Assembly (NCBI GenBank): GCA_963920705.1
Contig: CAWUCO010000283.1
Span: 879,770-943,769, forward strand
DNA: 64,000 nucleotides
Direction: 5' to 3'
Source of the DNA: Odiellus spinosus
Taxonomy: Eukaryota; Arthropoda; Arachnida; Opiliones; Phalangiidae
Position numbers and translations under genes: made by a program. Shown in pieces: positions 7,080 through 64,000 of the stretch (the stretch's first letter is position 1; every line of letters starts with the position of its first letter). Under the pieces are notes generated by a model. The model was not told the origin of the DNA. It did no database searches and saw nothing but the letters and a program-made list of their open reading frames with translations.

Positions 7080-10000
7080 TAATCTGGCTCGGATTAATTA
7101 AGGAGTTGAGCAATTATGATGCTTTAAATGCTTTAACTAATTTTAATTTTCAAATACTACTTCATGGCACTATGGTCGCCTGATTTCGCTATAGTAGTGT
7201 ACATCTATATATTTTTGACATTTTAATTTTGAACAAGTCTATAAACCGGTACTATACAGGTTTATTGAAATAGAAACTTAATGTTAACTAGTAATAGTTA
7301 TTTGGTAAATAATTCTAAGGCTTTGGTTGTTTTTTCTAACGGTCAAATAATCTTATTAGATCTAAGTCAATTTTTCCAAGTTATACACATATATCCTTCC
7401 ATAAAAATAAATTTACATTTTTACAATCCATAAGCTCGTTGTACATGTCGTGGTAAAGCTAGTTAACTATATTTTCATTTATCCACGGGCTGTTATTATT
7501 AAAAATGTATTTTTTCGCGTCAAGTATCGTCGTATTTTATTTATTTTACTCCTATTATTAAAACAAGAGTGAAAATGAATTTTGTTGGTAATTAGTGTAC
7601 CTGTTTAAGTAATAAAACTGCAGTAAATATGTCTATAAACTCGAGAAGACAACGAAGGAAATATCTAATTGGAACGCTTCAGGGAAGACAATATAGCCAA
7701 GCGCGGCCCGCCTAAATTCCGTCCCTCTCTCCCGACTCAAATTATCGAGCTGAAGATTCCAAACCACTAGAGATGATTTTTTTAGCTATTTTTAAGTGAT
7801 GGGCTATGACGTAATGGGCTGGACCTTTGTTGATAGTACTAACTCGTAGCTTAAGCTATACGAGCCGTTGTTTACTTTTATGGAATAAAGTTATAGACTT
7901 TTGATAAATACGATTGAAGCTTTTGCTATTTCGAAAACTATTCTGTATCAATTTAATTTTGTGGTAAATATTATCAGGGTACAAAAATCGTATTTTTGCA
8001 AGCGAGCTATTGAAGAAGATGATGAAGCCGTCAAATGGAAATTGTTAGAAGGCTCTTCCGATCAGACGAGAAAGTTGTGTAATCGTAACTCTGAATATGA
8101 GGTCATACCCTAACTGTATAAAGGATAATTCCATCTTGAATATAATTCCGTATTTAACCAGAGAAATAGTTTATAATTGGATTGAAAAAAGGTTAGAACT
8201 AAGCCTTGGCGTTTGGATAAACAACATCATCAAGAGATAATAATTGTAGCTAGAGCTCGGAATCGGATCGATTATCTTTCGTTATTCGTATATTTTCAGA
8301 TATTTTATTTACGGATAAATTGTTTCTAACTAAAAAATGAACTTTGTCTATTCGTATAATTGTCAAATGTACAATTTTTACCCGAAGATAAGCGTTTGGC
8401 GCTTTATCTATCTACAAATTACTCGTTTTCAAACGTATAACGATGGATAAGAAAAATATTTCAAATTGACTTTTATTTCGAAGAATATAAATAAAATAAC
8501 GAAACTAAGATTTTAAATCATCTTTTATTCGTTATTTTGTCACGAAAATAAATTTTGAATTTTTTTATCCTCAGCGTATAACGCTGATAATATTCTAAGA
8601 TAAGTTACCATTTTTGGATAAAAACGTATATGGATTATGGATTTTTACTTTATCTTCGAATAAGTTAACTCGAATGAAAAATAGTCTATTTTTAATCAAA
8701 TAGATAATATACATCCGAATTTAGTAGATTTTATCCAATTAATAAAAATTATACGAATTCTGAGCTCTATTCCGCGTTAACATGGAATTATATATTATGA
8801 TGGAAGATTCCACAAAAAAAAATGTAAAATCTACGCAGTTTTGGAACAACAATTTGACCGAATTGTACTGCGATGATAATCAGAGCAAAATGATGACGAA
8901 AATTATGAGTATTTACGATTTCTATATGCTTCTAACGGAAGAAGAAAAGTGAAACGCGTCGCAGGAAATTTCGAAATTCATTTCCAGCTGTCTCTTTAAC
9001 GGCCAAGCGTGCGACCACAAGTAACAAAAAGGATTAAAATAAAATCCCAATTGAGATTTAAATAAATCCTAACGGTTTTTTTTTTTTTTAGAAATTTCAC
9101 TAGAGTCAAAACGGCAATTTTCGGCAACAATTGTTTTCGTACAACTTCAGTTTTACATCGAGTTCTTACGGATTCGTTAGCGGTAATCAATTTTATCATA
9201 CTTAATTTTTCGAACTAAATAACACTATTTGGATCATTCCATAAATGCAGTAACGATAGACGATAATATAAATTCTGACTTCGTCCCAACCTTGAAAAAA
9301 GCAACAACTTCGGTAGAAACGGGTTCTATTTAACGGATCTTTTTGTTAGTTTCAAGGTTGGAAAAAGTATAGATTATCCTATACTTTGAACCAACCTTGA
9401 AAGGACCCATCTTCAATACAAACGGGTGCTTTTTAACGGCTTTACAAGATTATTTTATAATAAGGCCTATTGGAATACAATGTTTTAAAGTATACAGGGT
9501 GTTTCGAAAATGGTTGTAGAACCGAGCTACAATGGGTTCTATGGGTCATTTGAAGACGAAAATGTTATATGACGTTTTGTCGTACGAGACGCCGTTTAAG
9601 AGTTACGAAATGAATCATGTACGGATGACCCCTTATCGTACATGTACATTAATTAACGTATACTCAATGCTAAAATCGAATTTTTATCAAGCACTTGCTT
9701 TTAAAATACCAGTTAAATAATTAAGCGTATTTTGTCATTGAGTATACGTTTATTAATGTACGATAAGGGGTCATCCGTACATGATTCATTTCGTAACTCT
9801 TAAACGGCGCCCGTACGACAAAACGTCATAGAACATTTTCGTCTTAAAATGACCCATAGAGCCCACTGTATCTCTGTAACAAACCACGGGTAAATCAAGC
9901 TTCAAGTTTACAACAAGACATATTACGATTGGTATGGTGGTTTCTGAAAGTTTTGTCGTCAAAGCTTTCGCCCAAGGAGAGAGGAAACAAGATGGTCAAG

Positions 10001-13000
10001 CCCATAGGAATAGCTAGACCCATGACATTGTAAAAGAGGCTGAAAAGAATTATACTATAGCAGGGGCTTGTTATGCATGCATAAACGCTCTTAGAACAAT
10101 TTGAATGGCGTTTCGAGATTCCTTTAAACACGAAGTTGCGTAAAGTTTTACAAATCATGTTTTTCAAATCATGTTTTTCAAATCATGTAACTTTTCAAAT
10201 CATGTAACTTTTCAAATCATGTAACTTTTCAAATCATGTAACTTTTCAAATCATGTAACTTTTCAAATCATGTAACTTTTCAAATCATGTAACTTTTCAA
10301 ATCATGTTTTTCAAATCATGTTTTTCAAATCATGTTTTTCAAATCATGTTTTTCAAATCATGTTTTTCAAATCATGTTTTTCAAATCTTTATTAATTTAT
10401 CTTGGATACCCGTGTGTACGCGGCTTTATATCTAATCTTAATTTTTCTTTGATACCAGTCTGAACGCGGATTTATATCTAATCTTTTTTAATTTATCTTG
10501 GATACACGTGTGAACGTGGCTTCATATCGAATATTTATTAATTTTTAACTTAGATACCCGTGCGAACAGGCATTTATATATTATCTTTGTCATTTTATCT
10601 TGGGTACTCGTGCGAAATCTATTCTTTATTAAGTCATTTTTATCTTGGAAATGCGTCTTTATATATATTCTTTATTAAGTCATTTTATCTTGGATACCCT
10701 GCGAACACGCCTTTATATCTAATCTTTATTAATTTTTACCTTGGATACCTTGTGAAGGCACCTTTACATCTAATCTTTATCGTCTTTTCTTGGATACCCG
10801 TGAAAACGCACCATAATATCTAAAATTTATTAATTCATTTTATCTTGAACACCCGTGAAAACACGCCTTAATCTAATCAACCTATAAGAAAATATTGAAT
10901 ATCTTCGAAAATATCTTTTATATTAAATTTAAGTTTCAGCAACATTGGTTTTTAGATTAAGTTAAATCATTTAATGTTTTAATTTTAATTTAAATGAATA
11001 TTACGTTTCAATTCAGTAAAAGCTATCACCTCAGAAGGCTAAAATAGACGCGAATCCAAAAGATACTATATAAGGCGCTCGTTTATCATTATAAACTAAC
11101 AAGCGAGTAAAGGTTGCTGCTCTTCAATGAGCGGTGGTGGATGTACGTTTACAGCATGGTAGAAGCTAATAACTGTATATGTGAATTCTATCGGAGGGTC
11201 AAGCTCCGTGGGTGATGACGTCTTCTTCTGACGTCACGTACAGACAGAACCTCTCCGCGAACTAAAAGTTCACTCGGAGAGGTAAGGAGACGAAAGTTTT
11301 TCGATTCGATGACGTATTTCGTCTTCTTGCAAGACGCCGACGCCGCAGTGAATATAGTAGCTAGACCCCACTAGGGTTGGGTCTAGCTAAAAATACATAA
11401 TCTCGGTCGAGATACGGAATTTGAAATTGGCCTCTCTAGCGGTTGAGATTGGAACTAAGTAGGCGGTGATAATATCGCGCCGATTATCAAAAACAACTAT
11501 CCTCTCTTTCTCGCGAAACGAAGGGGGTGTCTCGCCCGGCCGTCCCGATTTCGAGTCTAATTTACTCTAGAAATAATATACTGGGCTTGGCCGCCTTTCT
11601 GTCCAAATTTCGGAATACTTAGGGTGAAATCATGGACTGAGAAAATCGGATTCGCTTCATCGTCATCCGCAGTATGTCGTCTATAAACTTGAAGGATGAT
11701 TTATTTGTGCGCGGAATAATAGCAGGATGCTATATTCAAGTTGACTAGCGAATTGAAACCCTGGTTGCGTAACTTTCTTCTGGGATTAAGTTTAATCTAT
11801 AATATTGACGAAGAAGAATACCTAACACCATCTATATATACGAGTATGTTGGGAATAGCGGCGAATATTGGGCAAGACAAAACAGCCGTGCCAAAACTAT
11901 ACTCTTACATGTTTCAAATTGCCCCAGGCACAAATACCGTCATAACAATGGATCAGGTATACTTACTTTTTTAACTATGATAATTATAATTAAACTAAGA
12001 ACAATTAACATCACGCCGAGAGCGAGTTTTATTGCAAACCGAAAAGAGGACTTATTTCTACGCTCATTAGCGAGCGAGATCAAGAGCAAATTAGGTTTTT
12101 AGCGAGATTCAGAGCATTAATTCTCAGAATGGTCTAATGGAATTCGCTATCAGTTGCTTTAATCGTGGGATGGTGACCCATAGAGGTCGGTGGTTCAGTC
12201 CTCCCTGAGTCAACTGATATTATTTCGCTAATTTTACAAGTTTGAGGGAATATAATCTTTTTGGAAGATATTATTGATTTTGGGAATATCCCAAATTAAC
12301 AACAAGATAGCTTTGCAAGACCGTAAGAGAAGCCACACCCCGAGAACCCATTCTGACGCTAAGAGTTATCACTATTAGACATTAAAGTCACTCGGGCTTC
12401 GTGCAAAAAACTATATGTTTGTCGAACTATATTCTAACTTTATGTTCAACCCAAAGTGTAATCCAGACACTCGCGCAAATAAAATTTTAAGGAATAATAA
12501 ACCCGAGCTTGGCGTCTTCGTTCTTATATCGTAATGTCAATTTATATCGCGGGCTTGTAACTGCCAAAAACCGTTTTATGAGGACATAATTATCTCTAAC
12601 AGACTGGCTATAAGTGATTAAATTTTATATTACATCATAGGTCAATTATCAAAGACTAGGAAGCTCCGTACATAGACAATTGTCGCAAATATGAGCAATA
12701 TTCCTTCAGAATGGTAAGACGTTGCTACTCTTGTAAAAGCAAAAGTATATGGTCAGACCTTCTAAATCTGAATGCTTCTAATTCTGAACACTTTCGTTTA
12801 AAAATGTATAACTTAACTATGGTTGGGTCGATTTAAAGATGGAAGTGCTCATTTTGTAGATTAAGAATGGGGTTATTCGAGGAACGCGACTTCAACACTC
12901 TAGGAAAAGATCCGGAGAAGATACGACCCTAATTAGCCAATCGCGATAATTAGCCTAAATAATTAGACCGTTTTAAAGAGAATGTTTCCGCTTAGAGTCC

Positions 13001-16000
13001 GGGAAATAAGGTTTTACGAGCTTTGGAAAAATCCCAGGCTTACGCGCTCGATTTCTTAGTAAAGTTTAAGTTTCGCGCTACAAAATAAACCCAGAAATTG
13101 GCCACAAACTCTTCGCGAAAATGTAAATTCAAAATATATCTAAAAATTTCTAATTCTTAACAGAGCGCTAAAATATATGAAAAACTTCCAAAATTTGCTA
13201 AAGCAGGGTTGCCACAGTTTTTCGGATTCAAATTCCCTGACTTTCCCAGGTTCTCCCTGACCTTTTCCAAAGATTTTCCCTGACCGTTATAAATACTACG
13301 AAATTTTCAACCTTTTTTTTTATATAATCGCGTTCGCCAAACCTTTAGCACTGACACGGTCAGCTTCAAATCTTTTTTTCAGATAACGATTGTAATTTAC
13401 TGGCTTCTTGAAAGATCTTTAAATTCCCTGACTTTTCCCTGACCTCTTAAAATATCATAAAATTCTCTGACTTTATATAGGTCTAATTTTCGGACTTTTC
13501 TTCAATTTTGATCGAGTGGCGAAACAACTTTTATGAGTGGCGAAACAGTATTTTATGATCTTCAAATAATATACGGAATGTCTACTTTCTAATGGCGCAA
13601 TCGGTTCACGCCTAGGTGGTTGCAAAGAAAAGTTATTTAAACGATAAGGAATCAATAAAAAGTTTGCATTAATGGTTTTTTAAGAGTTGAATGGCTCTAG
13701 TATGAATATATACTTTTGCTAAAAGATCTGCCAATAGTGATCTATGCGTAAATATTGATACGGAATCATTTTAAACAGAAATGCATCGACGATTGTTGGA
13801 ACAGGATAAACGAGATAGCCTGCAATTGCACAGACCCGTTGGTCAACTACCCTGATAATAATAATAATTATTGCAGTCTCTTCGATCCCGTAACGAGTAA
13901 GTTTGTTGTAGGAAGGTGGTGTAATTAATTGAGTAGTATTCTGACATATTCTTCATTAATTATAATAATTATTTATTACTGAATGAAGAGTGTTGCCTAA
14001 ACAGAGTTCGGGAAAACATATTGGAGAAAATGATGAATTGCGACTGTCGCGAACCGTGCGAGTAAATACGCTTATAAATTTATTTTGACAATGAATTCAA
14101 CATTAATTTCAATATTTCGTTTCAGTTCCGTGCATTATAGAATTTCAATATCTTCCGACAAACTAAACGTAAGTTTTACCATGTAGCAAATTTATCGTAT
14201 TCTACCACAAATAACTTAACCCTGCTCGCTTCCTTCGAGCCTCAACCCTACTCGATACTTCCTTCGAGCCTCAACCCTGCTCGATACTAACTTCGAGCCT
14301 CCACCCTGCTCGATACTTCCTTCCAGCCTCCACCGTGCTCGATAATTCCTTCGAGCCTCAACCCTGCTCGATATTTCCTTCGAGCCTCAACCATGCTCGA
14401 TATTTCCTTCAAGCCTCAACCCTACTCGATACTTCCTTCGAGCCTCAACCCTGCTCGATATTTCCTTCGGGCCTCAACCTTGCTCGATATTTCCTTCGAG
14501 CCTCAACCCTGCTCGATACGTCCTTCGAGCCTCAACCCTACTCGATATTTCCTTCGAGCCTCAACCCTGCTCGATACTTCCTTCGAGCCTCAACCCTGCT
14601 CGATATTTCCTTCGAGCCTCAACCCTGCTCGATATTTCCTTTGAGCCTCAACCCTGCTCGATACTTCCTTCGAGCCTCCACCCTGCTCGATATTTCCTTC
14701 GAGCCTTAAGCCTCCTCGATACTTTCTTCGAGCCTCAACCCTGCTCGATACTTCCTTCAAGCCTCAACCCTGCTCGATATTTCCTTCGAGCCTCAACCCT
14801 GCTCGATATTTCCTTCGAGCCTCAACCCTGCTCGATACTTCCTTCGAGCCTCAACCCTGCTCGATACTCCCGAGCCTCAACCCTGCTCGATATTTCCTTC
14901 GAGCCTCAACCCTGCTCGATATTTCCTTCGAGCCTCAACCCTGCTCGATATTTCCTTCGAGCCTTAACGCTGCTCGATATTTCCTTCGAGCCTTAACGCT
15001 GCTCGATATTTCCTTCGAGCCTCAACCCTGTTCGATATTTCCTTCGAGCCTCAACCCTGCTCGATACTTATTTCGAGTCTCAACCCTGCTCGATATTTCC
15101 TTCGAGCCTCAACCCTGCTCGATATTTCCTTCGAGCCTCAACCCTGCTCGATATTTCCTTCGAGCCTTAGCCCTGCTCGATACTTCCTTCGAGCCTCAAC
15201 CCTGCTCGATATTTCCTTCGAGCCTCAACCCTGCTCGATACTTCCGAGCCTCAACCCTACTCGATACTTCCTTCGAGCCTCAACCCTGCTCGATACTAAC
15301 TTCGAGCCTCCACCCTGCTCGATACTTCCTTCCAGCCTCCACCGTGCTCGATAATTCCTTCGAGCCTCAACCCTGCTCGATATTTCCTTCGAGCCTCAAC
15401 CATGCTCGATATTTCCTTCAAGCCTCAACCCTACTCGATACTTCCTTCGAGCCTCAACCCTGCTCGATATTTCCTTCGAGCCTCAACCTTGCTCGATATT
15501 TGCTTCGAGCCTCAACCCTGCTTGATATTTCCTTCGAGCCTCAACCCTGCTCGATACGTCCTTCGAGCCTCAACCCTACTCGATATTTCCTTCGAGCCTC
15601 AACCCTGCTCGATACTTCCTTCGAGCCTCAACCCTGCTCGATATTTCCTTCGAGCCTCAACCCTGCTCGATATTTCCTTTGAGCCTCAACCCTGCTCGAT
15701 ACTTCCTTCGAGCCTCCACCCTGCTCGATATTTCCTTCGAGCCTTAAGCCTCCTCGATACTTTCTTCGAGCCTCAACCCTGCTCGATACTTCCTTCAAGC
15801 CTCAACCCTGCTCGATATTTCCTTCGAGCCTCAACCCTGCTCGATATTTCCTTCGAGCCTCAACCCTGCTCGATATTTCCTTCGAGCCTCAACCCTGCTC
15901 GATATTTCCTTCGAGCCTTAACGCTGCTCGATATTTCCTTCGAGCCTTAACGCTGCTCGATATTTCCTTCGAGCCTCAACCCTGTTCGATATTTCCTTCG

Positions 16001-18304
16001 AGCCTCAACCCTGCTCGATACTTATTTCGAGTCTCAACCCTGCTCGATATTTCCTTCGAGCCTCAACCCTGCTCGATATTTCCTTCGAGCCTCAACCCTG
16101 CTCGATATTTCCTTCGAGCCTTAGCCCTGCTCGATACTTCCTTCGAGCCTCAACCCTGCTCGATATTTCCTTCGAGCCTCAACCCTGCTCGATACTTCCG
16201 AGCCTCAACCCTGCTCGATACTTCCTTCGAGCCTCAACCCTTCTCGATACTTCCTTTGAGCCTCAACCCTGCTCGATACTTCCTTCAAGCCCCAACCCTG
16301 CTCTGTACTTCCTTCGAGCCTCAAATAAACATGATTTTTGCCCTGGAACCGATTGTGGTTGGTTAAAGGCCCATTCAGAATATAGGATTTTTGCTGAAAA
16401 CCCTCGTCCAACTTTTCCTGTACAATTTTAGTTGTACAACTTCGCTTTCACACAGGGACGCAAAAATTGCACAGCTCCTAATGCAATTTCCCCGACTTCA
16501 CGCCATCTATGACGTCATAATTCGATTTCTAGTTATAAATATTCAGACTAGAAGGCGCAATTTCTGAAAAAAAAAGAACCAAGAGGTGGTAAAAAAGTCT
16601 GAACTGAACTTAACTTTACATTTGGCTAATTTTTCCTGTATGCTATAAAAATCATGAACTTGCGGCGAGGCTTAATAGTTGGCTGAAATTAAGTTATTAA
16701 ACTTTAGTATTTAAAATGGAAGTAAACATTCAAAATAAAAAAAGCCTTGGCTACAAAAAAATATGTTGAACAGTAAAAATTGGAGTATTTGCGTGAAGTG
16801 TTAAGCCTAGGCTAGTGAAAATGCCGCTAACAATTTATCCGCTATAAATATGTCGCTTTCCTATTGGACACTTTGAACGTAGACAAAAATAATACAGCAG
16901 AAATCGGTCCATGGTGCGATAAAAATCGCGATGTTCAATCAGCAAAAGTTGTACAGCTTTGGCTTTCACATTTCGCGATTAGTTGTACAACAAAAGTTGT
17001 AACCCAAGTTTTTCAGCAAAAATCCTAGTCTGAATGGGCCTTTATTTGGGTGCCCCAAAACTTATAATCCCATAAAATATTCGTGGTAGAATGTGATAAA
17101 CAAATATTGACGTTGTATGTTAACGGGAATGAAATTATTTCGCAGACCAGAGTAATAAACGACACAGGAATTGGAGTGTAAGATTTGGATTTTTTCCTTA
17201 CCGTTTTAGCTAATACAACCAAATTTTTAACCTTTTATTCTTTATATAATCGCGTTCGCCAAACCTTTTGCACAGGAGCCCCGCCACGGATTTTTCAAGA
17301 GTAGGCACAGCCAGATTTAGAGGCCCCTTCCCATTTCTTACTACACTAATCACGTGATAAATAGTTTACTTCTTAGACTAATCCTTCGAGCCCTGCCGCG
17401 CGCGGGAAAGAGGGGGAGGGGGAAATAAGTTAAATTTTTTGTTTATTTTCAATCCGATTTGAACCGGTTTATGTCAGCTCCATGCCTACTCTATATCGTC
17501 TGGCAGCCATAATAAATTTAATTTCGAGGCAACCCCAAAATAGGCCCTAAATTTTCAACGTAGGCACGTGCCTACTTGTGCCTACTGCTGGCGGGGCTAC
17601 TGTTTTGCACTGACACGGTCAGCTTCAAATCTTTTCCGCAGATAATGATTGTAATTTCCTGGCTTCTTGAAAGATCTTTATATTCCCTGACTTTTTTTGG
17701 TTCACTTTTAAATTCCACGACTTTTCCATGTTTTCCCTGACATGTTGCAACACTGTCTTGGATTAAACCAACAATGCCATAAACATGAGCTTTTAATTAC
17801 AGTGTACGATTTTACCTTCGAAATTCTGACGTTCTAAAATACGAATCTAATCCCAAATTCAGGGTGGGTAACTTTTTATTTAAAATTGAAACTGACTAAA
17901 AAACCCTACACTAGTGAAAAATGTTTTTCATGATTTAGTTGACCTAATATTTCACGTCGACGCGAAACACTAACTATTAAAAAATAGCTTTGTTTCCTCG
18001 TTAGTGAAGGAATTTTTTGTGTTTTTTTTCAGACCACCGATTTCTTTTCAAATCTGGTTCGTAGCCAAACTTTTCTGTATTAAAATTTAACTAATTTAAA
18101 TTTAAATATATCGTTATCAAGGGAGGACAGTTTGGTCTTTGGTTAGGATTATCACTCTTGGACATATTAGGCGGATCTTACACCCAAATAATTAAGAAGC
18201 TGTTTCATAAAGGATTTAAAAGAAGACAAATCAATAAAATCAAGATTGGTATTCCTCAATTAAGATCAAATTCAACATTCAACTCCAGAAATCAATTCGT
18301 TTAA
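6780..18304 (+). CDS. DEG/ENaC (degenerin/amiloride-sensitive) channel gene, 12 exons traced, possibly inactivated
   Basis: Spliced gene assembled from exons 6780-7040, 7978-8084, 8765-9020, 9092-9182, 11726-11956, 12641-12713, 13991-14061, 14126-14168, 17146-17177, 17803-17863, 18033-18056 and 18122-18304. Every traced junction keeps phase apart from the lesions noted in exons 3 and 6. The product has the family plan: cytoplasmic N-terminus, TM1, FPTIVLCN after TM1, CLFNGQAC, GNNCF, the GLSLIYNI and IAPGTNT strands, APYIDNC, YSFRM followed by C, the NCDCREPC cysteine motif, Y-x3-S strands, then TM2 with GGQFGLWLGLSLL. Such channels are trimeric, Na+-selective plasma-membrane channels gated by ligands or mechanical force in neurons or epithelia. 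No start codon is visible, so at least one 5' exon is missing (gap or upstream). An in-frame TGA in exon 3 and an extra base in exon 6 would abolish the product unless they are assembly errors or are bypassed. Family assignment is firm; orthology and activity are not. Confidence 0.85.
7041..7075. repeat. (TA)n microsatellite starting at the splice donor
   Basis: GTAAATATATAT continues into a TA run that begins within a few bases of the exon 1 donor. Confidence 0.9.
7790..7915. repeat. Dispersed repeat R2, copy 1
   Basis: GTTGTTTACTTTTATGGAAT followed by AAAGTTATAGACTTTTGAT matches 20135-20190 (GTTGTTTACTTTCAAGGAAT and AAAGTGATAGACTTTTGAT). Short, non-coding. Confidence 0.5.
7978..8084 (+). 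CDS. DEG/ENaC exon 2, early extracellular domain
   Basis: The acceptor TATTATCAG ends at 7977; the first base completes the split Trp codon of exon 1, so the phase fits exactly. It encodes VQKSYFCKRAIEEDD and AVKWKLLEGSSDQTRKLCN, extracellular sequence of the poorly conserved finger/palm region. The 3' boundary is uncertain: a donor GTAACT at 8085 gives the phase needed by exon 3; a GT at 8102 leaves the frame open further but in the wrong phase. Confidence 0.6.
8252..8768. mobile_element. MITE family M1, copy 2 (complete)
   Basis: Begins TAGAGCTCGGAATCGG and ends ACGAATTCTGAGCTCTA, giving terminal inverted repeats of about 11-13 bp (GAGCTCRGAAT) bounded by TA at both sides, as in Tc1/mariner-type MITEs. 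About 517 bp, no ORF. It lies in the intron before exon 3, and the AG at 8763-8764 inside its last bases may serve as that exon's acceptor. A short matching end (TAGAGCTCAGAGTTCGTAC) also occurs near 44715. Confidence 0.75.
8765..9020 (+). CDS. DEG/ENaC exon 3 with in-frame TGA
   Basis: The frame reads FRVNMELYIMMEDSTKK, then QFWNNNLTELYCDDNQSK, SIYDFYMLLTEEEK, a TGA at 8950-8952, and continues NASQEISKFISSCLFNGQAC to the donor GTAACA at 9021. SCLFNGQAC is the conserved cysteine motif of the extracellular domain. The reading after the stop is plainly family-like, so the TGA interrupts a real exon. The 5' boundary is uncertain; the nearest AG (8763-8764) lies at the end of the adjacent MITE and has a poor pyrimidine tract. 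The exon ends with two bases of a split Lys codon. Confidence 0.7.
9092..9182 (+). CDS. DEG/ENaC exon 4 with GNNCF
   Basis: A strong acceptor (a run of T ending TTTAG at 9091), an exon of 91 nt, then donor GTAATC at 9183. The first base completes the Lys codon of exon 3. It encodes NFTRVKTAIFGNNCFRTTSV and VLTDSLA. GNNCF corresponds to the GxCYTFN region of the family, slightly divergent. It ends in phase 0. Confidence 0.75.
9235..9425. repeat. Short inverted/direct repeats of CCAACCTTGAAA
   Basis: CCAACCTTGAAA occurs at about 9287 and 9392 and its reverse complement TTTCAAGGTTGG at about 9351, with ACGGGT-type blocks between. Non-coding, intronic. Confidence 0.5.
9528..9870. mobile_element. 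Foldback element FB2, about 343 bp
   Basis: The two halves are near-perfect reverse complements: TACAATGGGTTCTATGGGTC at 9528 matches the inverse near 9870, and CATGTACGGATGACCCCTTA in the left arm matches TAAGGGGTCATCCGTACATG in the right. Arms of about 145-155 bp surround a loop of about 50 bp. Just upstream, 9493 reads TACAGGGTGTTTCGAAA, a sequence often seen at DNA-transposon ends, so the element may extend further left. Confidence 0.8.
10145..10390. repeat. 14/17-bp tandem array of element A
   Basis: Unit TTTTTCAAATCATG (14 bp), interrupted by a block of 17-bp units with an added TAAC. It is the reverse complement of the 14-mer in the array at 62985-64000, and has the same orientation relative to the parent element. 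Confidence 0.95.
10390..10870. repeat. 50-bp degenerate tandem array of element A
   Basis: Repeats of ATCTTGGATACCCGTG, GAACGCGGCTTTATATC and TAATCTTTATTAAT with a period near 50 bp. The same unit, inverted, builds the array at 21435-22265, and a decayed version lies at 40500-40640. Confidence 0.85.
11726..11956 (+). CDS. DEG/ENaC exon 5, palm strands
   Basis: Acceptor ATAGCAG ends at 11725 (an alternative CAAG at 11740 is in the same phase) and donor GTATAC starts at 11957. 77 codons in phase 0: DAIFKLTSELKPW, then LLGLSLIYNIDEEEYL, LGIAANIGQDKTAVP and FQIAPGTNTVITMDQ. GLxLxxxIxxxEY followed by an APGTxTxI strand is a strong family signature. Confidence 0.85.
12120..12240 (+). other. tRNA-like Pol III promoter sequence, SINE relic or chance
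   Basis: ATGGTCTAATGG resembles an A box and GGTTCAGTCC a B box; TATCAGTTG and CAACTGATA could pair as a stem, and TGGG/CCCA encloses a 7-nt loop with GGT. There is no room for a D arm and five extra bases follow the T arm, so it is not a functional tRNA. It lies in the exon 5-6 intron. Confidence 0.3.
12641..12713 (+). CDS. DEG/ENaC exon 6, apparent +1 frameshift
   Basis: Acceptor CATCATAG ends at 12640 and donor GTAAGA starts at 12714. The 73 nt read VNYQRL in phase with exon 5, then, after one extra base near 12659-12660, EAPYIDNCRKYEQYSFRM. Together these match the family pattern RLxxPYxxC...YS. Without the extra base the exon would be exactly 24 codons and in phase with exon 7. Alternatively, using the AG at 12658-12659 as acceptor keeps the frame but drops six residues. 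Either a real lesion, an assembly error or a shifted splice site. Confidence 0.75.
12885..12965. repeat. Dispersed repeat R3, copy 1
   Basis: ACACTCTAGGAAAAGATCC and GGAGAAGATACGACCCTAAT match 39070-39122 (ACACTCTAGGAAAGTATCC, GGAGAAGATACGACGATAAT). Non-coding. Confidence 0.6.
13203..13455. repeat. Dispersed repeat R4, copy 1 (uninterrupted)
   Basis: Starts GGGTTGCCACAGTTTTTCGG and carries repeated AATTCCCTGACTTT pieces, ATAATCGCGTTCGCCAAACC and TGACACGGTCAGCTTCAAAT. The same blocks appear at 17225-17760, where a MITE interrupts them. Non-coding. Confidence 0.8.
13991..14061 (+). CDS. DEG/ENaC exon 7, cysteine-rich NCDCREPC
   Basis: Starts after AAGAG at 13990 in phase 0 and ends at donor GTAAAT (14062). 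It encodes CCLNRVRENILEKMMN followed by CDCREPC. Joined to exon 6 it gives YS-x3-C, the spacing seen in DEG/ENaC proteins, and the CxCxxPC motif that precedes the last extracellular strands. The acceptor is weak; an in-frame alternative TAG at about 13935 would add AT-rich residues. Confidence 0.72.
14126..14168 (+). CDS. DEG/ENaC exon 8 (43 nt)
   Basis: Canonical acceptor TTTCGTTTCAG and donor GTAAGTTTT. Its first base completes the codon after CDCREPC; it then encodes SVHYRISISSDKLN, matching the family's CxxxxYxxxxS strand. Ends in phase 0. Confidence 0.85.
14217..16325. repeat. Intronic satellite, 29-bp unit, about 70 copies
   Basis: Unit CTCGATATTTCCTTCGAGCC plus TCAACCCTG (29 bp). A higher-order duplication exists: GATACTAACTTCGAGCCTCC occurs at about 14283 and again 1009 bases later, with the same sequence of variant units following. 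Open frames of 80-180 codons inside are by-products of the repeat. Confidence 0.97.
16364..17044. mobile_element. MITE M2, about 680 bp, long imperfect TIRs
   Basis: TAAAGGCCCATTCAGAATAT and AGGATTTTTGCTGAAAA at the left are mirrored at 16990-17044 (TTTTCAGCAAAAATCCTAGT, CTGAATGGGCCTTTA). Homology of the ends extends about 70 bp, including GTACAACTTTTGTTGTACAA-like blocks. No ORF of note. It lies in the intron upstream of exon 9. Confidence 0.8.
17146..17177 (+). CDS. DEG/ENaC exon 9 (32-nt micro-exon)
   Basis: Acceptor TTATTTCGCAG ends at 17145 and donor GTAAGA starts at 17178. It encodes TRVINDTGIG plus two bases of the next codon. Phase 0 at the start matches exon 8; the two trailing bases are completed by exon 10. 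The protein content alone would not identify it, but phase and splice sites fit on both sides. Confidence 0.65.
17225..17760. repeat. Dispersed repeat R4, copy 2, split by a MITE
   Basis: Collinear with 13203-13455 (ATAATCGCGTTCGCCAAACC, TGACACGGTCAGCTTCAAAT, GGCTTCTTGAAAGATCTTTA) but interrupted at 17274-17602. It ends ATGTTGCAACACTGTC, the likely inverse of the GGTTGCCACAG start. Confidence 0.8.
17274..17602. mobile_element. hAT-type MITE M3 with 8-bp target duplication
   Basis: Flanked on both sides by TTTTGCAC (17266-17273 and 17603-17610). Ends AGGAGCCCCGCCA and, inverted, CAGTAGCCCCGCCA are terminal inverted repeats, with nearby GAGTAGGCAC / GTGCCTAC. About 329 bp, no ORF. The paralogous repeat at 13203-13455 shows the unoccupied site. 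Eight-base duplications and CAGNG-like ends are hAT traits; the superfamily is inference. Confidence 0.8.
17803..17863 (+). CDS. DEG/ENaC exon 10, last extracellular strands
   Basis: Acceptor CTTTTAATTACAG ends at 17802, donor GTGGGT starts at 17864; 61 nt. The first base completes a Val codon from exon 9, then VRFYLRNSDVLKYESNPKFR, which fits the family's VxVYF...Y strand before TM2. Ends in phase 0. Confidence 0.8.
18033..18056 (+). CDS. DEG/ENaC exon 11 (24-nt micro-exon)
   Basis: A very strong acceptor (TGTTTTTTTTCAG) followed by eight codons, TTDFFSNL, then GTTCGT as donor. Joined to exon 12 it reads FFSNLGGQFGLWLG, matching the usual LLSxIGGxxGLWLG entry into TM2, which fixes both boundaries although the donor is not canonical beyond GT. 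Confidence 0.75.
18122..18304 (+). CDS. DEG/ENaC exon 12 (last): TM2 and C-terminus
   Basis: Begins after CAAG at 18121 in phase 0. It encodes GGQFGLWLGLSLLDILGGSY, the pore-lining second membrane segment with its GxSxL selectivity-filter region (here GLSLL), then a basic cytoplasmic tail of about 40 residues (IIKKLFHKGFKRRQINK...) and TAA at 18302-18304. The usual acidic residue after the filter (LLSxxE) is replaced by D in LLDIL. Confidence 0.88.
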   Translation, partial: GGQFGLWLGLSLLDILGGSYTQIIKKLFHKGFKRRQINKIKIGIPQLRSNSTFNSRNQFV

Positions 18305-19129: not shown

Positions 19130-19590
19130 GGAGCTTGTACGCTTTTCCGATTGCGTTTCCGTACGAATGGTTAGGAGGTTCTTTCGAGGTTACGGAATGG
19201 TTATAAATAGTTCTTTCGAGGCTACGCGTTCGAACAAATGGATTCAGAAACTTCTTTCGAAGCTACGCGTTCGACGTAAGGGTTAGGAAACATTCTTTCA
19301 AGGTTACGCGTTCGACGGAATGGTTTCAGAAACTTCTTTCGAAGCTACGCGCTCGACCGAATGGTTTTAGAAACTTCTTTCGAGGTTACGCGTTCGACAG
19401 AATGGATTTAGAAACTTCTTTCGAGGTTACGCGTTCGACGGAATGGTTTTAGAAACTTCTTTCGAGGTTACGAGTTCGACGGAATGGTTTTAACTTCTTT
19501 CGAGGTTACGCGTTCGACCGAATGGTTATGATAAAATTTTAGTCAGGTTACGCGTTTGACGGAATAGTTTAAAAAAATCATACAGGATTG
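19130..19590. repeat. Minisatellite, 41-bp unit, about 10 copies
   Basis: GGTTACGCGTTCGACGGAAT followed by GGTTTTAGAAACTTCTTTCGA repeats every 41 bases (for example at 19386 and 19427), decaying at both ends. Confidence 0.92.
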
Positions 19591-21331: not shown

Positions 21332-22349
21332 TTTATAGCTACACCAAAAGTGTAGCTATTACATTCGGTGGTTCGCCGCCGTCGCCGCCATGGAAAGGAC
21401 GAAATTCGCGAAAATCAAGCATTCGCGTAGAAGCTCGCGTAGAAGAAAATAAATAATATTAGATATAAAGCCGCGTTCGCAAGATACATTAATAAAGATT
21501 AGATATAAAGGCGCGTTCACACGGGTTACTAATTAGAAAATTAATAACACACGTGGCTATAAGTTGAAAATATAAAATGATTAGTTACAAAGGCGCGTTC
21601 ACACAGGTTTATAAGATAAATTAATAAAGATTAGATATAAAGGCGCGTTCACACGGATTAATAATTTGAAAGTAAATATTAGATATAAAGGCGCGTTCAC
21701 ACGGGTTAATGATTTGGAAATAAATAATATTAGATATAAAGCCACGTTCACAAGATAAATTAATAAAGATTTGATATAAAGCCGCGTTCACAAGATAAAT
21801 TAATAAAGATTAGATATAAAGGCGCGTTCACACGTGTTTATAAGTTGGAAATAGCTAAAGATTAGATATAAAGGTGCGTTCACAAGATACATTAATAAAG
21901 ATTAGATATAAAGGTGCGTTCACAAGATACATTAATAAAGATTAGATATAAAGGCGCGTTCACACGGGTTAATAATTTGGAAATAAATAATATTAGATAT
22001 AAAGCCGCGTTCACAAGATAAATTAATAAAGATTAGATATAAAGCCGCGTTCACAAGATAAATTAATAAAGATTAGATATAAAGCCGCGTTCACAAGATA
22101 AATTAATAAAGATTATATATAAAGGCGCGTTCACACGTGTTAATAAGTTGAAAATAGCTAAAGATTAGATATAAAGGTGCGTTCACACGGGTTTATAAGT
22201 TGAAAATAAATAAATATTAGATATAAAGCCGCGTTCACAAGATAAATTAATAATGATTAGATCTAAAAATGAAAAGTGGAAAAATGAAGTGTCATTGGTT
22301 TCAAGTGTCGTTGGTGTAGCTATTCTTATGGGTTTGACCATCTTGTTTC
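21332..22349 (-). mobile_element. Satellite-bearing element, copy D (reverse orientation)
   Basis: The stem-loop TAGCTACACC / GGTGTAGCTA variant lies at 21335-21360, the array at 21435-22265, and the shared end motif GGTGTAGCTATTCTTATGGG, TTTGACCATCTTGTT at 22312-22347. This is the reverse complement order of copy A. The TAGCTAGACCC core has changed to TAGCTACACC at both ends together. Confidence 0.65.
21435..22265. repeat. Tandem array of about 50-bp units in element D
   Basis: Unit GATTAGATATAAAGGCGCGT, TCACACGGG (or TCACAAGATA) and AATTAATAAA; roughly 16 copies with two interleaved variants. It is the inverse of the array at 10390-10870. Confidence 0.95.
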
Positions 22350-25650: not shown

Positions 25651-26283
25651 TTAGTAGAGTGCAACAGTCTCAGTCTGATTTAGTTGCAGTCGACGCGAAG
25701 TCAGCCCCTTTAGAGTATTCGAACTTTCGTCGGACCTTAGAAGGTTACCTTGAACATCAGTTATGAAAGGCGAGTCAAATACTGGGAGTGACAGAAACGT
25801 ATCACGCGCGATAAATTCCGGGAGCACCCGGAAAGGAAGCGAAAACCATGAATCTAACATTGACCGGTAGAACGGGTCCTTAAACCGGGAAGCCATGCGG
25901 CGTAAAAACAAATCGCGAAATGGGGTCGCTCGGTTTGAGTTCGAATCGGTGACTGCTTTCGCCATGATCACGTGAGGGCTGGTGTCATCACCAGCGAGGA
26001 GGCGATGCGACAAACCAATACGGAACGCCTTTACTTTAGAGGCCAACTCAACCAGACCAACACCCCCGAAACGCCTCTCTTGGTGAAGAGTAGGCGCATT
26101 AACCCAATGAATGCCGTCCCAGATAAAGGCTAGGATAAGCTTCTGTACTTCTTGGAGAAACTGCGGAGGTGGTTGGAGTACCTTCAAACAATGCCAAAGG
26201 ACACTGCCCGCAAGCTGGTTGACGACCAAAACTCTACCAGTGATAGAGCAGTGGTGTCTATGGCGAAACCATCGTCCAAGCAC
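25651..26283 (-). CDS. LINE A ORF2, C-terminal part after the in-frame stop
   Basis: Continues the reverse-transcriptase frame directly after a TAG at 26284-26286. The first residues (VLGRWFRHRHHCSITGRVLV) carry on from the preceding segment without loss, so only the stop interrupts it. It includes AFIWDGIHW and FGGVGL, typical of the LINE region after the polymerase, and ends GLTSRRLQLNQTETVALY. In Tx1-type proteins the TSRRLY motif is followed by another 150 or so residues with a cysteine cluster, which are missing; homology stops at the flanking repeat. The apparent Met start in other predictions is not biological. Confidence 0.7.
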   Translation of the reverse strand: MLGRWFRHRHHCSITGRVLVVNQLAGSVLWHCLKVLQPPPQFLQEVQKLILAFIWDGIHWVNAPTLHQERRFGGVGLVELASKVKAFRIGLSHRLLAGDDTSPHVIMAKAVTDSNSNRATPFRDLFLRRMASRFKDPFYRSMLDSWFSLPFRVLPEFIARDTFLSLPVFDSPFITDVQGNLLRSDESSNTLKGLTSRRLQLNQTETVALY

Positions 26284-28597: not shown

Positions 28598-28633
28598 AAG
28601 TTTATAATACAGGGGGGGGGAAGCCGACTTACC

Positions 28634-32866: not shown

Positions 32867-32907
32867 AAGTTAAAGTAAAAAAAAAAAAAAAAAAACGTCA
32901 AGGGCGA

Positions 32908-37812: not shown

Positions 37813-38770
37813 GAACAAGGTGGTCAAGCCCATAGGAATAGCTAGACCCACGACATCGTAAAAGAGGACGAAAGGAATGATCCAATATGAAAGTTTTAAA
37901 TTTTTCATATAAAAGTTTTAAATTTTTCATATAAAAGTTTTAAATTTTTCATATAAAAGTTTTAAATTTTTCATATAAAAGTTTTAAATTTTTCATATAA
38001 AAGTTTTAAATTTTTCATATAAAAGTTTAAAATTTTTCATATAAAAGTTTAAAATTTTTCATATAAAAGTTTAAAATTTTTCATATAAAAGTTTAAAATT
38101 TTTCATATAAAAGTTTAAAATTTTTCATATAAAAGTTTAAAATTTTTCATATAAAAGTTTAAAATTTTTCATATAAAAGTTTAAAATTTTTCATATAAAA
38201 GTTTAAAATTTTTCATATAAAAGTTTAAAATTTTTCACATAAAAGTTTAAAATTTTTCATATAAAAAATCAAGTTTTTCATTACTGACCGACAAAAACAC
38301 AACAGGCATAAGCCTCCCTTTTTTATCCTATTCGTGACGACTTGTTGGTGGTTTTCTAGTTTTATTACTGACAGTCTAAAACCAAAATACTATAAGCTCC
38401 CTTTTAGCCCCGTTCGCGAAGAAAAAGTATTATCGCTTGCGCGACGACTTTTATAAGAAGTTTTTCACCTCTATCATAACAAGCCTCCGTGGGATAGAGC
38501 TAGGGCGTCCGTCAATCGATCGCACAAGTTATGCCGCTTCGAGCGCAGTCAGTGGCTGGGTGGGAGACCTCAAAAAAAGCATATATTAAATACATGTTTA
38601 TTTTTATATATTGATTGGGACATCACGTCGTAACATCTGGTGGATAAGAAACGAATGTTTTTTCGATACGATGACGTTTTTCGTCATTTCTGGGACACTG
38701 ACTTCAGACTACCAGCACGACTCAAAACACTAGCTAGACCCATGTACAAGTACTTGGGTCTAGCTAAAAA
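37813..38770 (+). mobile_element. Satellite-bearing element, copy B
   Basis: Starts GAACAAGGTGGTCAAGCCCA, TAGCTAGACCC at 37839-37849. A 22-bp array (37886-38270) follows, then a unique part related to copy C (TTATTACTGACAGTC, ATAAGCTCCCTTTTA), GATACGATGACGTTTTTCGT, and the stem-loop TAGCTAGACCC / GGGTCTAGCTAAAAA at 38731-38770. Same ends as copies A, C and D; different array. No ORF. Confidence 0.7.
37886..38270. repeat. 22-bp tandem array of element B, about 17 copies
   Basis: Unit TATAAAAGTTTTAAATTTTTCA in the first six or seven copies, then TATAAAAGTTTAAAATTTTTCA in the rest; the change happens once (about 38027), so each variant spread as a block. Confidence 0.95.
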
Positions 38771-46540: not shown

Positions 46541-46572
<32 letters not shown>

Positions 46573-47373: not shown

Positions 47374-47590
47374 ACCGGACAATTGGGCGCCGAAATTTGG
47401 GCGCCGGACATTTGGGCGCCGGACATTTGGACGCCTCGACATTTGGACGCCGAGCCATTTGGATGCCGTGCCATTTGGGCGCCGTGCCATTTGGGCGCCT
47501 GGACATTTGGGCGCCGGGACATTTGGGCGCTGGGACATTTGGGCGCCTGGACATTTGGGCGCCTGGACATTTAGGCGCCGGGACATTTGA
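47374..47590. repeat. 16-bp tandem array, about 13 copies
   Basis: GGGCGCCGGGACATTT with minor changes; three units are 48 nt, so all frames stay open and give P/R/Q-rich pseudo-ORFs on both strands. Confidence 0.95.
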
Positions 47591-52508: not shown

Positions 52509-52840
52509 TTGTCTTCGTTTTTGTGGTGGAGACGATGACGTTGAAGAGCCATGATCACTATGAAGGACGATTTGCTAGCATTTAAGAACGTTTGAAACTT
52601 TCGTGACAGACCCGAGCACTTTAAACAAATCTTCGTTGTTTTGCTATTAATTACAAGTGGTAATAACCCTTCACTAAAACGAAGAAAACGAGCAAAGCCA
52701 GCCTTTACGTGAGTGCCTATACCTCTACTTGTACTATTGGTAACTTTCCGATTCCACGCGTAACATGTATTTGGAGCCATCTCCAAATTCCAAGTGACTC
52801 TCACATTGATGTTATTGATAAGGAAAGTTCTTAAGATCAT
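52505..52840 (-). CDS. Possible THAP-like leader ORF of the ISL2EU-like element
   Basis: 111-codon ORF just upstream of the transposase in another frame. Around residue 21 it reads MAPNTCYAWNRKVTNSTSRG, similar to the start of THAP zinc-binding domains (M-x3-C-x3-C), but the second Cys is Arg, and later ICLKC would replace the C-x2-H pair. A GT after GIGTH could be a splice donor. It may be a decayed DNA-binding exon; the evidence is weak. Confidence 0.25.
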   Translation of the reverse strand: MILRTFLINNINVRVTWNLEMAPNTCYAWNRKVTNSTSRGIGTHVKAGFARFLRFSEGLLPLVINSKTTKICLKCSGLSRKFQTFLNASKSSFIVIMALQRHRLHHKNEDK

Positions 52841-52943
52841 GGTTCAAACCAGATATTACAATTTTTTTAATGTTTATAAAAACAGGTTTAATTATTTTTC
52901 GCCAACCTGGCTGGCAAAAAATATTAAAGACGTCTTTAATATA

Positions 52944-53990
52944 TGTAGATGGCACCTATATCAAGGTTGGAAGATCCAAGGACTATACCGTTCTTCACAA
53001 ATCCTTCTGTGTGCACAAAGGCCAGCATATCCTCAAGCCAATGTTAATGGTAACAACTACGGGTTACATAATAGATATAATCGGACCCTACTTTGCTAAT
53101 GGCCCCGCAATAACGACGCGCGCATTTTAAACCATTCTATCAAAAAGAGAGAAGAACTCCAGTCTTTCTTTCAAGTTGGTGACGTTGTACTGGCAGACCG
53201 CGGTTTTCGAGACTCCAACAGCGTACTGACTGAACTGGGTGTGGATTTACAAATGCCTTCGTTCTTGTCTAAAGGCGAGAAGCAAGTAAACACGCAAGAA
53301 GTTAATCGTTCCCGACAAGTAACGTACTTCAGGTGGCCGGTTGAAGTTAGGAATGGGCATTTGCAGCCGGTGTATCGTTTTTTTCAAAACCGTATACCTG
53401 TGCATATGTTACCATTAGTTCCGGAACTTCTTCAAATTGCTGCTGCGCTGTTGAACGCCTACCACCCGGAGTTACATCTTAAAGGTTCCTGGGAAGACTC
53501 CGTCGAAAAAATGCTGGCAGTCTCTACGAAAGAAAATCCTCAATGTCAACGAATTGAGGATAGTGAATTTCAAGACTTCCCTGTACTTCGTGAAAGTGAT
53601 GTACGTGAGGTGGTAATGAGCGACTTTAAAACGAAACGCGCTGAATCTTATGTGGCGTTGACTATAGAGAAATCCGGCTCTTTCAGCGTCGAAGTGTCCA
53701 AAGTTGAACATGACTTAATTCGTATACGCGTGCCTGGTCAATTTTCCACCTCAGCTGTTCACCAAGCTCTAATTCGTTATGTACCGAACGGGACAGGTGC
53801 AAATGCCATTAAAGGCTGGTATTGCAATTGCAAAGGTGGTAGTTTGACGATAGGTACTTGTGTTCACGTTAGCAGCGTAATCTGGTATCTTGGTTATCGT
53901 CGCCATGAAGATCGAGGCAGTTGGTACCAGTCAAAATTGCGTGTAGTGTGTGAAGATGCCACTGAGCTTGAACTACCAGACATACGTTAA
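52944..53990 (+). pseudogene. Partial second copy of the DDE_4 transposase, frameshifted
   Basis: Begins at VDGTYIKVGRS (first catalytic Asp region) and is nearly identical to residues 278-624 of the 50634-52508 protein. Two extra C at about 53103 change GPYFANGRNN to GPYFANGPAI and end the frame at 53130; the correct frame resumes and runs to 53990 (ending ELPDIR), with a few substitutions (for example T to P, W to C). The N-terminal half is absent because the arm begins at 52944. Not able to encode transposase by itself. Confidence 0.9.
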
Positions 53991-60354: not shown

Positions 60355-60885
60355 GGTTCACCCGAAATCGCGATGGCTCACCCGAAATCGCGAAAGCTCA
60401 CCCGAAATCGCGAAAGCTCACCCGAAATCGCGAAAGCTCACCCGAAACCGCGAAAGTTCACCCGAAATCGCGAAAGTTTTTCCCGAAATCGCGAAAGTTT
60501 TTCCCGAAATCGCGAAAGTTTTTCCCGAAATCGCGAAAGTTTTTCCCGAAATCGCGAAAGTTTTTCCCGAAATCGCGAAAGTTTTTCCCGAAATCGCGAA
60601 AGTTTTTCCCGAAATCGCGAAAGTTTTTCCCGAAATCGCGAAAGTTTTTCCCGAAATCGCGAAAGTTTTTCCCGAAATCGCGAAAGTTTTTCCCGAAATC
60701 GCGAAAGTTTTTCCCGAAATCGCGAAAGTTTTTCCCGAAATCGCGAAAGTTTTTCCCGAAATCGCGAAAGTTTTTCCCGAAATCGCGAAAGTTTTTCCCG
60801 AAATCGCGAAAGTTTTTCCCGAAATCGCGAAAGTTTTTCCCGAAATCGCGAAAGTTTTTCCCGAAATCGCGAAAGTTCAGTTACA
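60355..60885. repeat. Minisatellite, 20- to 21-bp unit, about 25 copies
   Basis: The first five or so units are 20 bp (CTCACCCGAAATCGCGAAAG); the remaining ones are 21 bp (TTTTTCCCGAAATCGCGAAAG). Because 21 is divisible by three the long 200-codon frames here are artefacts. Confidence 0.97.
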
Positions 60886-62504: not shown

Positions 62505-64000
62505 TTTTTAGCTAGACCCTATACTTGTATAGGTTCTAGCTAGTGTTTTGAGTCGTGCTGGTAGTCTGAAGTCTGAAGTCGGTGTCCCAGAAATGACGAA
62601 AAACGTCATCGTATCGAAAAAACATTCGTTTCTTATCCACCAGACGTCACGGCGTGATGTCCCAGACAAATTTAAAATATATATATTTTTTTAAGATATC
62701 GATTTTTCCACCAAGTGGTTTCCCGAATTTCCGAAAAACCGCGTCGCACTCGAAGCTTCATAACTTTACGATTGAGTTTTAGACGCTCATCCTCGTTACC
62801 AATACAGAAAACAAGTCGTTGTTAATAAAGAGTCGTCGCGAACGAAATAAAAGGTAGCTTATGAAGGTTTCGGTTCTAGTCTGTCAGTAATGAAAACTCA
62901 AAAACAACAAACAAGTCGTCGCGAACGAGATAATAAGGGAGCTTATGCGTGTTGGGTTTGAGTATGCCAGAAATAAAATATTTGATTTGAAAAAGATGAT
63001 TTGAAAAAGATGATTTGAAAAACATGATTTGAAAAACATGATTTGAAAAACATGATTTGAAAAACATGATTTGAAAAACATGATTTGAAAAACATGATTT
63101 GAAAAACATGATTTGAAAAACATGATTTGAAAAACATGATTTGAAAAACATGATTTGAAAAACATGATTTGAAAAACATGATTTGAAAAACATGATTTGA
63201 AAAACATGATTTGAAAAACATGATTTGAAAAACATGATTTGAAAAACATGATTTGAAAAACATGATTTGAAAAACATGATTTGAAAAACATGATTTGAAA
63301 AACATGATTTGAAAAACATGATTTGAAAAACATGATTTGAAAAACATGATTTGAAAAACATGATTTGAAAAACATGATTTGAAAAACATGATTTGAAAAA
63401 CATGATTTGAAAAACATGATTTGAAAAACATGATTTGAAAAACATGATTGGAAAAACATGATTGGAAAAACATGATTGGAAAAACATGATTGGAAAAACA
63501 TGATTGGAAAAACATGATTGGAAAAACATGATTGGAAAAACATGATTGGAAAAACATGATTGGAAAAACATGATTGGAAAAACATGATTGGAAAAACATG
63601 ATTGGAAAAACATGATTGGAAAAACATGATTGGAAAAACATGATTGGAAAAACATGATTGGAAAAACATGATTGGAAAAACATGATTGGAAAAACATGAT
63701 TGGAAAAACATGATTGGAAAAACATGATTGGAAAAACATGATTGGAAAAACATGATTGGAAAAACATGATTGGAAAAACATGATTGGAAAAACATGATTG
63801 GAAAAACATGATTGGAAAAACATGATTGGAAAAACATGATTGGAAAAACATGATTGGAAAAACATGATTGGAAAAACATGATTGGAAAAACATGATTGGA
63901 AAAACATGATTGGAAAAACATGATTGGAAAAACATGATTGGAAAAACATGATTGGAAAAACATGATTGGAAAAACATGATTGGAAAAACATGATTGGAAA
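62505..64000 (-). mobile_element. Satellite-bearing element, copy C (runs off the window)
   Basis: Reverse orientation: stem-loop TTTTTAGCTAGACCC / GGTTCTAGCTAGTG at 62505-62545, then GTGTCCCAGAAATGACGAAA, ACGTCATCGTATCG, TTCGTTTCTTATCCACCAGA (the inverse of 38640-38720 in copy B), CTGTCAGTAATGAAAA, AAGGGAGCTTATG, and a 14-bp array to the edge. Its other end lies beyond 64000. Confidence 0.7.
62985..64000. repeat. 14-bp tandem array, about 72 copies to the window edge
   Basis: Unit GAAAAACATGATTT up to about 63437, then GAAAAACATGATTG without exception to 64000. Three overlapping minus-strand ORFs of 344-371 codons arise from it because the unit has no stop in those frames; they are not genes. 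Confidence 0.97.

Follow-up and report, generated by a model that had tools for sequence, protein, structure and literature searches.

Helentron-associated INEs (HINEs), i.e., non-autonomous Helentrons, that carry tandem arrays are already known from flies, mites and oysters. In the passages cited here, the 5′ subterminal inverted repeat (subTIR) of HINEs lies 2-4 nt from the 5′ end and the 3′ subTIR is followed by a short palindrome (PMC4067079, PMC7492417), and in both DINE-1 and the oyster elements an inverse sequence lies near the 5′ subTIR (PMC4067079, PMC7492417). The cited part of the oyster study describes HINEs with one or two arrays in fixed orientation, in which the same flanks can enclose different arrays, and it states both capture of arrays and growth from the element as scenarios (PMC7492417). 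DINE-derived satellites of Drosophila are listed in the cited part of a review (PMC9659126). Here we describe four elements of this sort, copies A, B, C and D, in a 64,000-nt stretch of the Odiellus spinosus genome (C274:879770-943769; hereafter the window), which we compared with the whole 443-Mb assembly of 286 contigs.

We are confident that A, B, C and D are HINEs, on which a Rep-encoding element would act in trans, and that their arrays are carried along. The copies share ends, their insertions have empty sites elsewhere, and a Helentron encoding Rep, a PIF1 helicase and an endonuclease has a matching 3′ terminus, so we assign them to this class. Four HINE features are present: subterminal inverted repeats (about 11-15 bp in the class), a 5′ subTIR close to the 5′ end with its inverse nearby, insertion in T-rich DNA without target duplication, and no coding capacity. 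The 3′ end is common to the coding Helentron, whereas a shared 5′ end was not found in the Helentron copies read; of the 5-10 bp palindrome usual between 3′ subTIR and 3′ end, there is only ATGG/CCAT. Features of canonical Helitrons (5′ TC, a 3′ hairpin with CTRR, A/T insertion) are absent, the ends being TTTTTAGC... and ...CTTGTT in a T-rich target, and so are those of miniature inverted-repeat transposable elements (MITEs) and other terminal inverted repeat (TIR) transposons, namely terminal inverted repeats and a target duplication. A reading made earlier from the letters of the window (the sequence-only reading) had proposed a mobile unit of the HINE class, and the genome-wide copies, the paired ends in fixed order, the empty sites and the Helentron with the same 3′ terminus bear this out.

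Going by what is known of the family, the Rep-encoding Helentron would nick the ends in trans and peel off one strand, which would then join a T-run without target duplication. The arrays travel inside the element and change length there. The ends and their order, the empty sites, the matching 3′ end of the coding element, the varying array length and the seed are all observed; we infer trans-mobilisation and the rolling-circle steps, and also the direction from seed to array that is discussed below.

Comparison with described systems

The closest match is Cg_HINE of Crassostrea gigas, as the cited passages present it (PMC7492417). There too, a left module holds a subTIR and a complementary inverted repeat, a right module of ~60 bp holds a subTIR, and satellite-like arrays of constant orientation lie between, with two consecutive arrays in some elements and identical flanks around unrelated arrays in others. 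Both systems use a T-rich target without target-site duplication (TSD), and in both the left module can include a short microsatellite. In our elements this is a GGCGTT-type repeat near the 5′ end (6- or 18-bp rows in Tandem Repeats Finder [TRF] output), present in 7 of the 18 complete copies extracted below. What differs here is the unit length (14, 17, 22 and ~50 bp) and that the same genome contains a Rep element sharing the HINE 3′ terminus, as well as a 14-bp seed.

The HINEs and Helentrons of mites, Culex and Drosophila, including DINE-1, are described in the cited passages with a 5′ subTIR near a T-rich 5′ end, a TT target without TSD, tandem repeats in some elements, and a partner encoding Rep, helicase and endonuclease (PMC4067079), all as here. 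However, the 3′ palindrome is very short in our elements, and identity to the partner is mainly in the last ~50 nt, as against >95% in the Culex and >98% in the Drosophila examples (same passages). The DINE-TR1 satellites of Drosophila, as cited in PMC9659126, also arose when central tandem repeats of a Helentron-type element became satellite arrays; in our satellite locus L063, by contrast, the amplified unit comprises the array, the 3′ terminus and ~60 bp beyond. We claim no novelty for the seed or for the 3′-end satellite. What this genome offers, with a variable 14-bp array, a seed in the Helentron and a satellite made of array plus 3′ end, is a direct test of whether arrays are captured or grown.

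Four copies in the window

Copy A is a complete HINE on the minus strand (9986..11393), with its 5′ end, a T-run, at 11393 and its 3′ end, CTTGTT, at 9986. The 5′ subTIR AGCTAGACCC and its own inverse form a hairpin at 11358..11389, a GATGACGTATTTCGTC block lies close to the 5′ end at 11308..11323, and repeat finding and alignment place an array of ~50-bp units, shared with D, at 10384..10878. A 14-bp array with a 17-bp variant occupies 10145..10387, its 14-bp unit shared with C, and the 3′ subTIR GGGTCTAGCTA and 3′ terminus TTCCTATGGGCTTGACCATCTTGTT occupy 9986..10021. Copy B is also complete and on the minus strand (37814..38770, 5′ end at the 38770 side and 3′ end at 37814), with its 5′ subTIR hairpin at 38731..38766 and a 22-bp array of 17.4 units at 37885..38266. 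Copies C and D are on the plus strand. D (21332..22347, 3′ end at 22347) has a variant subTIR, AGCTACACCA, a hairpin at 21336..21358 and a ~50-bp array at 21443..22267. C (62505..64000) is the 5′ part of a HINE that leaves the window within its own array; its hairpin is at 62509..62542 and its 14-bp array, with 72.7 units up to the window end, is at 62983..64000 (two variants, 30 and 39 exact units counted). Motif search gave the blocks and, together with folding, the hairpins.

The sequence-only reading had given all four copies a common AACAAG end, a hairpin at one end, a block common to three copies, and different arrays. A 20-nt motif for the AACAAG end has three matches in the window, all exact with up to three mismatches allowed (0.00 expected): in A at 9986, in D at 22347 (minus strand) and in B at 37814. 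The end thus stands for these three copies; it was not found in 62505-64000, the part of copy C inside the window. The hairpin is present in all four, as TAGCTAGACC in A, B and C and as the variant TAGCTACAC in D, each folding better than all 200 of its shuffles, and a search of the window for the hairpin arm gave 11 matches with at most one mismatch (1.95 expected). The common block, GATGACGTWTTTCGTC, is exact in A, B and C; when three mismatches are allowed it has four matches in the window, a number which 2 of 100 shuffles reach.

The arrays have the unit lengths described, but they are not all different. Alignment shows that A and C have a common 14-bp unit (84-93% by piece) and that A and D have a common ~50-bp unit (66-84% by piece), in both cases with identical orientation relative to the ends, and the 17-bp unit of A is a longer version of its 14-bp unit (net three letters more). 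Copies B and C align over 527 columns at 72% in the stretch between array and hairpin. The DNA ahead of the array or arrays measures ~0.1 kb in D and ~0.5 kb in A, B and C. No closed stop-to-stop open reading frame (ORF) of ≥150 aa lies within A, B, C or D (the list holds no ORFs that leave the window end, which concerns C), and Rfam at gathering scores gave no match in the window.

Orientation and end structure

The hairpin had been placed at the far (3′) end of the elements, and this has to be reversed. On the strand opposite to the one first read (in A and B), a T-run, AGCTAGACCC, a loop and the inverse come first, giving a 5′ terminus laid out as the T-run and then TAGCTAGACCC...GGGTCTAGCTA. 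The hairpin end, with its T-run and its subTIR plus inverse, is the 5′ end, and AACAAG...CCCAT represents the 3′ end as read on the complementary strand. This layout agrees with the published HINE descriptions given above. The genes of the coding Helentron read towards CTTGTT, which settles the direction of the element.

The subTIR at the 3′ end sits 25 nt inside the terminus. Its complementarity to the 5′ subTIR is 10 of 10 nt in 15 of the 18 complete copies and 8 nt in the other three, extending to 11 nt in A and B. Where the subTIR of D differs from that of A, the bases are changed identically at both ends.

Copies and insertion sites across the genome

A search with copy A gave 130 matching pieces (best 40 of 2669 candidates scored). 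The 3′ end motif, with at most one mismatch, occurs 3563 times in the genome and the exact A/B-type 5′ hairpin 125 times, with no control match for either; the 100 places listed for the 3′ motif are all exact and all on contig C1. In IMG/VR there was no exact match to the 3′ motif, though records close to this genome may be excluded from it. Copies lacking both ends in this order, or end motifs occurring independently of arrays, had been named in advance as results that would speak against a single family. Only a mild form of this is seen: the 3′ motif is ~28 times commoner than this one exact 5′ hairpin, so the 3′ end belongs to more than these four kinds of element. A second 5′ type, with AGCCACACC, occurs at locus L008.

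Ends are paired on C1: for 6 of the 13 exact 5′ hairpins there, the nearest 6 kb include an exact 3′ end in convergent orientation (at 1530-3001 bp). Of the remaining hairpins, one has only wrongly oriented 3′ ends within that distance and six have none. Under 2000 circular shifts, the number of convergent pairs averaged 0.11 and never exceeded 3. This test used 90 of the 100 listed 3′ places, those in a tandem block at 30.28 Mb (10 places) being left out. Mismatched 3′ ends are not in the list (e.g., the copy at 2935873 has one), so six paired hairpins is a lower bound.

We extracted 18 complete elements: A, B, D and 15 more from 14 loci (two of them in L008). The sample comprised the window and 27 loci chosen as matches to A (L002-L028), and extraction demanded both end patterns, so a fixed end order is built into it. 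Complete elements came from 14 of the 27 loci, and L007 lies within L027, a locus that holds two copies head to tail, the second cut within its 5′ hairpin. Over their first 520 nt, the 15 A-type copies are 90.9-99.8% alike (mean 95.8%).

Empty paralogous sites were found for all four insertions queried (A, B, D and L006). Their joined flanks have 40 junction-spanning places that are 85-92% identical (best 40 of 1223 candidates): 2 for A, 33 for L006, 1 for B and 4 for D. Six of these sites were aligned, with identical columns of 112/126, 114/131, 109/124, 114/129, 113/127 and 115/126 and small gaps at the junction. The T-run at the empty site is an uninterrupted 5-7 T in four of the six and T-rich but interrupted in the other two.

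One further region, G000:C1:5118860-5288093, has eight 3′ ends on one strand, mostly spaced at ~25 kb with one 14-kb gap, and is probably a large tandem duplication with HINE ends.

A coding Helentron with the same 3′ terminus

The sequence-only reading had suggested looking for an autonomous relative with Rep and helicase. A genome-wide search for the Helitron_like_N domain (PF14214) scored 150 matches from 184 candidates, whereas 14 control genomes gave none. One element on C1 (L060, L061), which we call H1, has Helitron_like_N and PIF1 (PF05970) above the cut-off in separate frames, and a copy on C280 has an open frame of 1999 aa, of which the first 901 aa were scanned. H1 supplies the relative that was sought as far as the 3′ terminus goes; its 5′ end is unmatched.

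Copies of H1 on C280, C9 and C5 match its 3′ region on each side of a nested 846-bp high-copy repeat, and their matches end at query positions 2881, 2875 and 2877, the H1 terminus being 2876. All four copies keep GGGGTCTAGCTATTC(C/A)TATGGGCTTG(A/C)CCATCTTGT, after which the flanks diverge; the C9 copy lacks the last T of the terminus. We considered whether the 3′ end of H1 might be a nested HINE and rejected this, as the matches of the copies end at the H1 terminus. Identity to H1 is 94% for the last 50 nt of A, 93% for the last 42 nt of B and 84% for the last 49 nt of D. Apart from the query, three listed H1-family matches (C9, a second place on C280, and C1) begin at L069:437, and the other copies begin later.

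Several observations weigh against our classification. The 3′ palindrome amounts to ATGG/CCAT, and the 3′ ends fold no better than shuffled sequence, 16 (A), 66 (D) and 15 (B) of 200 shuffles being as good. Among the 27 sampled loci, 10 have one exact end only and two (L022, L024) have none. The H1 endonuclease match (Exo_endo_phos_2, PF14529) is below the Pfam cut-off. At the 5′ side, the HINE hairpin was not found upstream of Rep in the stretches of H1 copies that were read (C1 and C280, and C5 in part), and neither a T-run nor a hairpin is present at the two H1 starts read (C280, C1). Surroundings of Rep matches were read much beyond ~1.5 kb on C1 (L059, L060), C280, C11, C18 and C107. Lastly, H1 and A are hardly similar beyond the last ~50 nt, most of the unique part of A being missing from H1; the exceptions are the 14-bp seed and a ~40-nt block near the 5′ end of A which matches the H1 3′ region on the other strand. 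The HINEs are therefore not simple deletion derivatives of H1.

H2 (L059/L062) was rejected as a partner: a 3′ end lies ~1.8 kb after its endonuclease ORF, but this belongs to a separate HINE with its own 5′ end ~1 kb upstream. The DNA upstream of H2, which may belong to it, is 71-74% similar over 155 bp to a TATATA stretch of A-type copies, a stretch that we label promoter-like from its letters, and is followed by a few poor 50-bp repeat units. Helitron-like copies on C11 and C18 are of another family, ending elsewhere and having subterminal inverted repeats of ~233 bp. These copies (L064-L067; C11:9843700-9857700 and C18:6547400-6561400) are 98-99% identical and contain 30-bp in-frame coding repeats. 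Copies on C107, spaced at 11.2 kb, showed no HINE ends in the 9.9 kb read.

Repeats nested in H1 deserve separate mention. The 846-bp repeat (L060:8160-9005) has 36 more places at 99-100% identity among 40 scored candidates and is a young high-copy repeat. Another of ~440 bp (L069:1213-1654), also high-copy, is ~83-84% identical to its own reverse complement, i.e., foldback-like. At L071 (C9:714000-714500), the 3′ flank of an H1 copy resembles the 22-bp unit of B by eye, so it looks like a Helentron inserted into a HINE-type array.

Origin of the arrays

In 14 of the 15 A-type copies, TRF finds an array of the ~50-bp type and then a short-unit array. The short unit is reported as 17 bp in A and as 14 bp in 13 A-type copies, whose unit number ranges from 9.4 to 188.6. 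In L006, TRF gives no separate row for the short array, which nevertheless contains eight exact unit strings. The sequence-only reading had the element acquiring or generating satellites repeatedly. As independent acquisition, this is not supported for A and C or for A and D, which share units.

All four H1 copies contain ATTTGAAAACCATGTTT within 133-165 nt of the 3′ end, a stretch that aligns to 1.3-1.7 units of the 14-bp repeat; 0 or 1 of 300 shuffles did as well (stretches of 900, 900, 196 and 317 nt). Of the HINE copies with a AAAAACATGA, 11 have the last one 179 nt from the 3′ end and three more have it at 166, 132 and 129 nt. A seed in the coding Helentron near the place of the array makes growth out of the element itself more likely than acquisition, and seed and array also agree in orientation; most simply read, the seed gave rise to the array. 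We conclude that at least the 14-bp array probably arose in this way, from a short seed ~135-165 nt before the 3′ end of the coding Helentron. Two cautions apply: because the four H1 copies belong to a single lineage, they provide one observation of the seed, and it could instead be the remnant of a collapsed older array.

The alternative with most remaining weight is that the arrays are ordinary genomic satellites captured by the element, with the 14-bp seed in the Helentron a trace that arose by chance or secondarily. For oyster HINEs, the cited passages give filler capture as one of two scenarios (PMC7492417); array types do vary within the family, B having 22-bp units where A and C have 14-bp ones; and no seed for the 22-bp unit of B was found in H1 (134-248 of 300 shuffles were as good). 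However, a captured satellite does not account well for the narrow placement of the 14-bp array (the last AAAAACATGA is 129-179 nt short of the 3′ end in the 14 copies, of 18, containing that string), for a seed at 133-165 nt in four of four Helentron copies, or for the units and orientation common to A and C and to A and D. We consider capture unlikely, although it deserves to be kept in mind.

That the elements could seed satellites across the genome, as had been suggested, is upheld by a single higher-order satellite whose unit includes a HINE 3′ end, and by the abundance of the 14-bp repeat. The former, L063 (C1:30282300-30287300), consists mostly of 237- or 265-bp repeats that contain the HINE 3′ end and a variant of its subTIR, and 15 ends fit the 3′ pattern in 5 kb. 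Each unit has a 14-bp array of TAGGGGTGACACGG directly before the 3′ subTIR and includes ~60 bp past the terminus, making L063 a direct case of a HINE end plus array turned into a higher-order satellite. As for abundance, the 14-bp unit of A, searched as a trimer with at most one mismatch, matches 32,080 windows in the genome (control 0), which at 14-nt steps is ~32,000 units or ~0.45 Mb at least. Only two arrays are among the rows listed; each lies on the same strand as a 3′ end motif, beginning 123 and 159 nt beyond the first base of that motif.

A broader idea, which we rate as rather improbable, is that the 3′ subterminal zone of Helentrons (~130-180 nt before the end) is a birthplace of minisatellites, formed by slippage on short seeds when a strand is synthesised or transferred at the 3′ end in rolling-circle transposition. 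Unrelated sequences beside the 3′ subTIR would then become arrays of similar short period, which would spread and, amplified along with the 3′ end, might become satellites. Examples would be the 14-bp unit of A and C and the different 14-bp unit of L063; the 22-bp array of B and the ~50-bp array of D count against a fixed period.

Other explanations for the copies

Two further explanations were weighed. In one, the copies derive from a TIR DNA transposon as MITEs or foldback elements, and their inverted repeats are degenerate TIRs. Inverted repeats do lie close to both ends, but the ends are asymmetric (the 3′ repeat being 25 nt inside), a Rep/helicase element has the same 3′ terminus, and the six empty-site alignments, covering four insertions, show no target duplication other than T. 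These alignments largely refute the idea, and we give it very little credence.

It is just as improbable that the window copies result from segmental duplication or array spread and not from transposition: some related loci are clearly tandem duplicates (the C1 3′ ends mostly ~25 kb apart, and the L063 satellite), but among the 18 extracted copies the flanks listed are all different apart from those of A and L006, which lie in one host repeat at almost the same T-run. In addition, empty paralogous sites exist for four insertions, and there the break coincides with the element ends.

Other features of the window

The window contains further arrays: a 29-bp array of 72.6 units at 14230-16324, and others at 60381-60877 (21 bp), 19195-19570 (41 bp) and 47377-47589 (16 bp). 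An ORF for a DDE_Tnp_4 transposase lies at 50634-52574; an incomplete duplicate of its 3′ part lies inverted at 53100-53990. Two adjacent non-LTR retrotransposons in tandem, with endonuclease and reverse transcriptase in several frames, occupy 25651-32869 on the minus strand.

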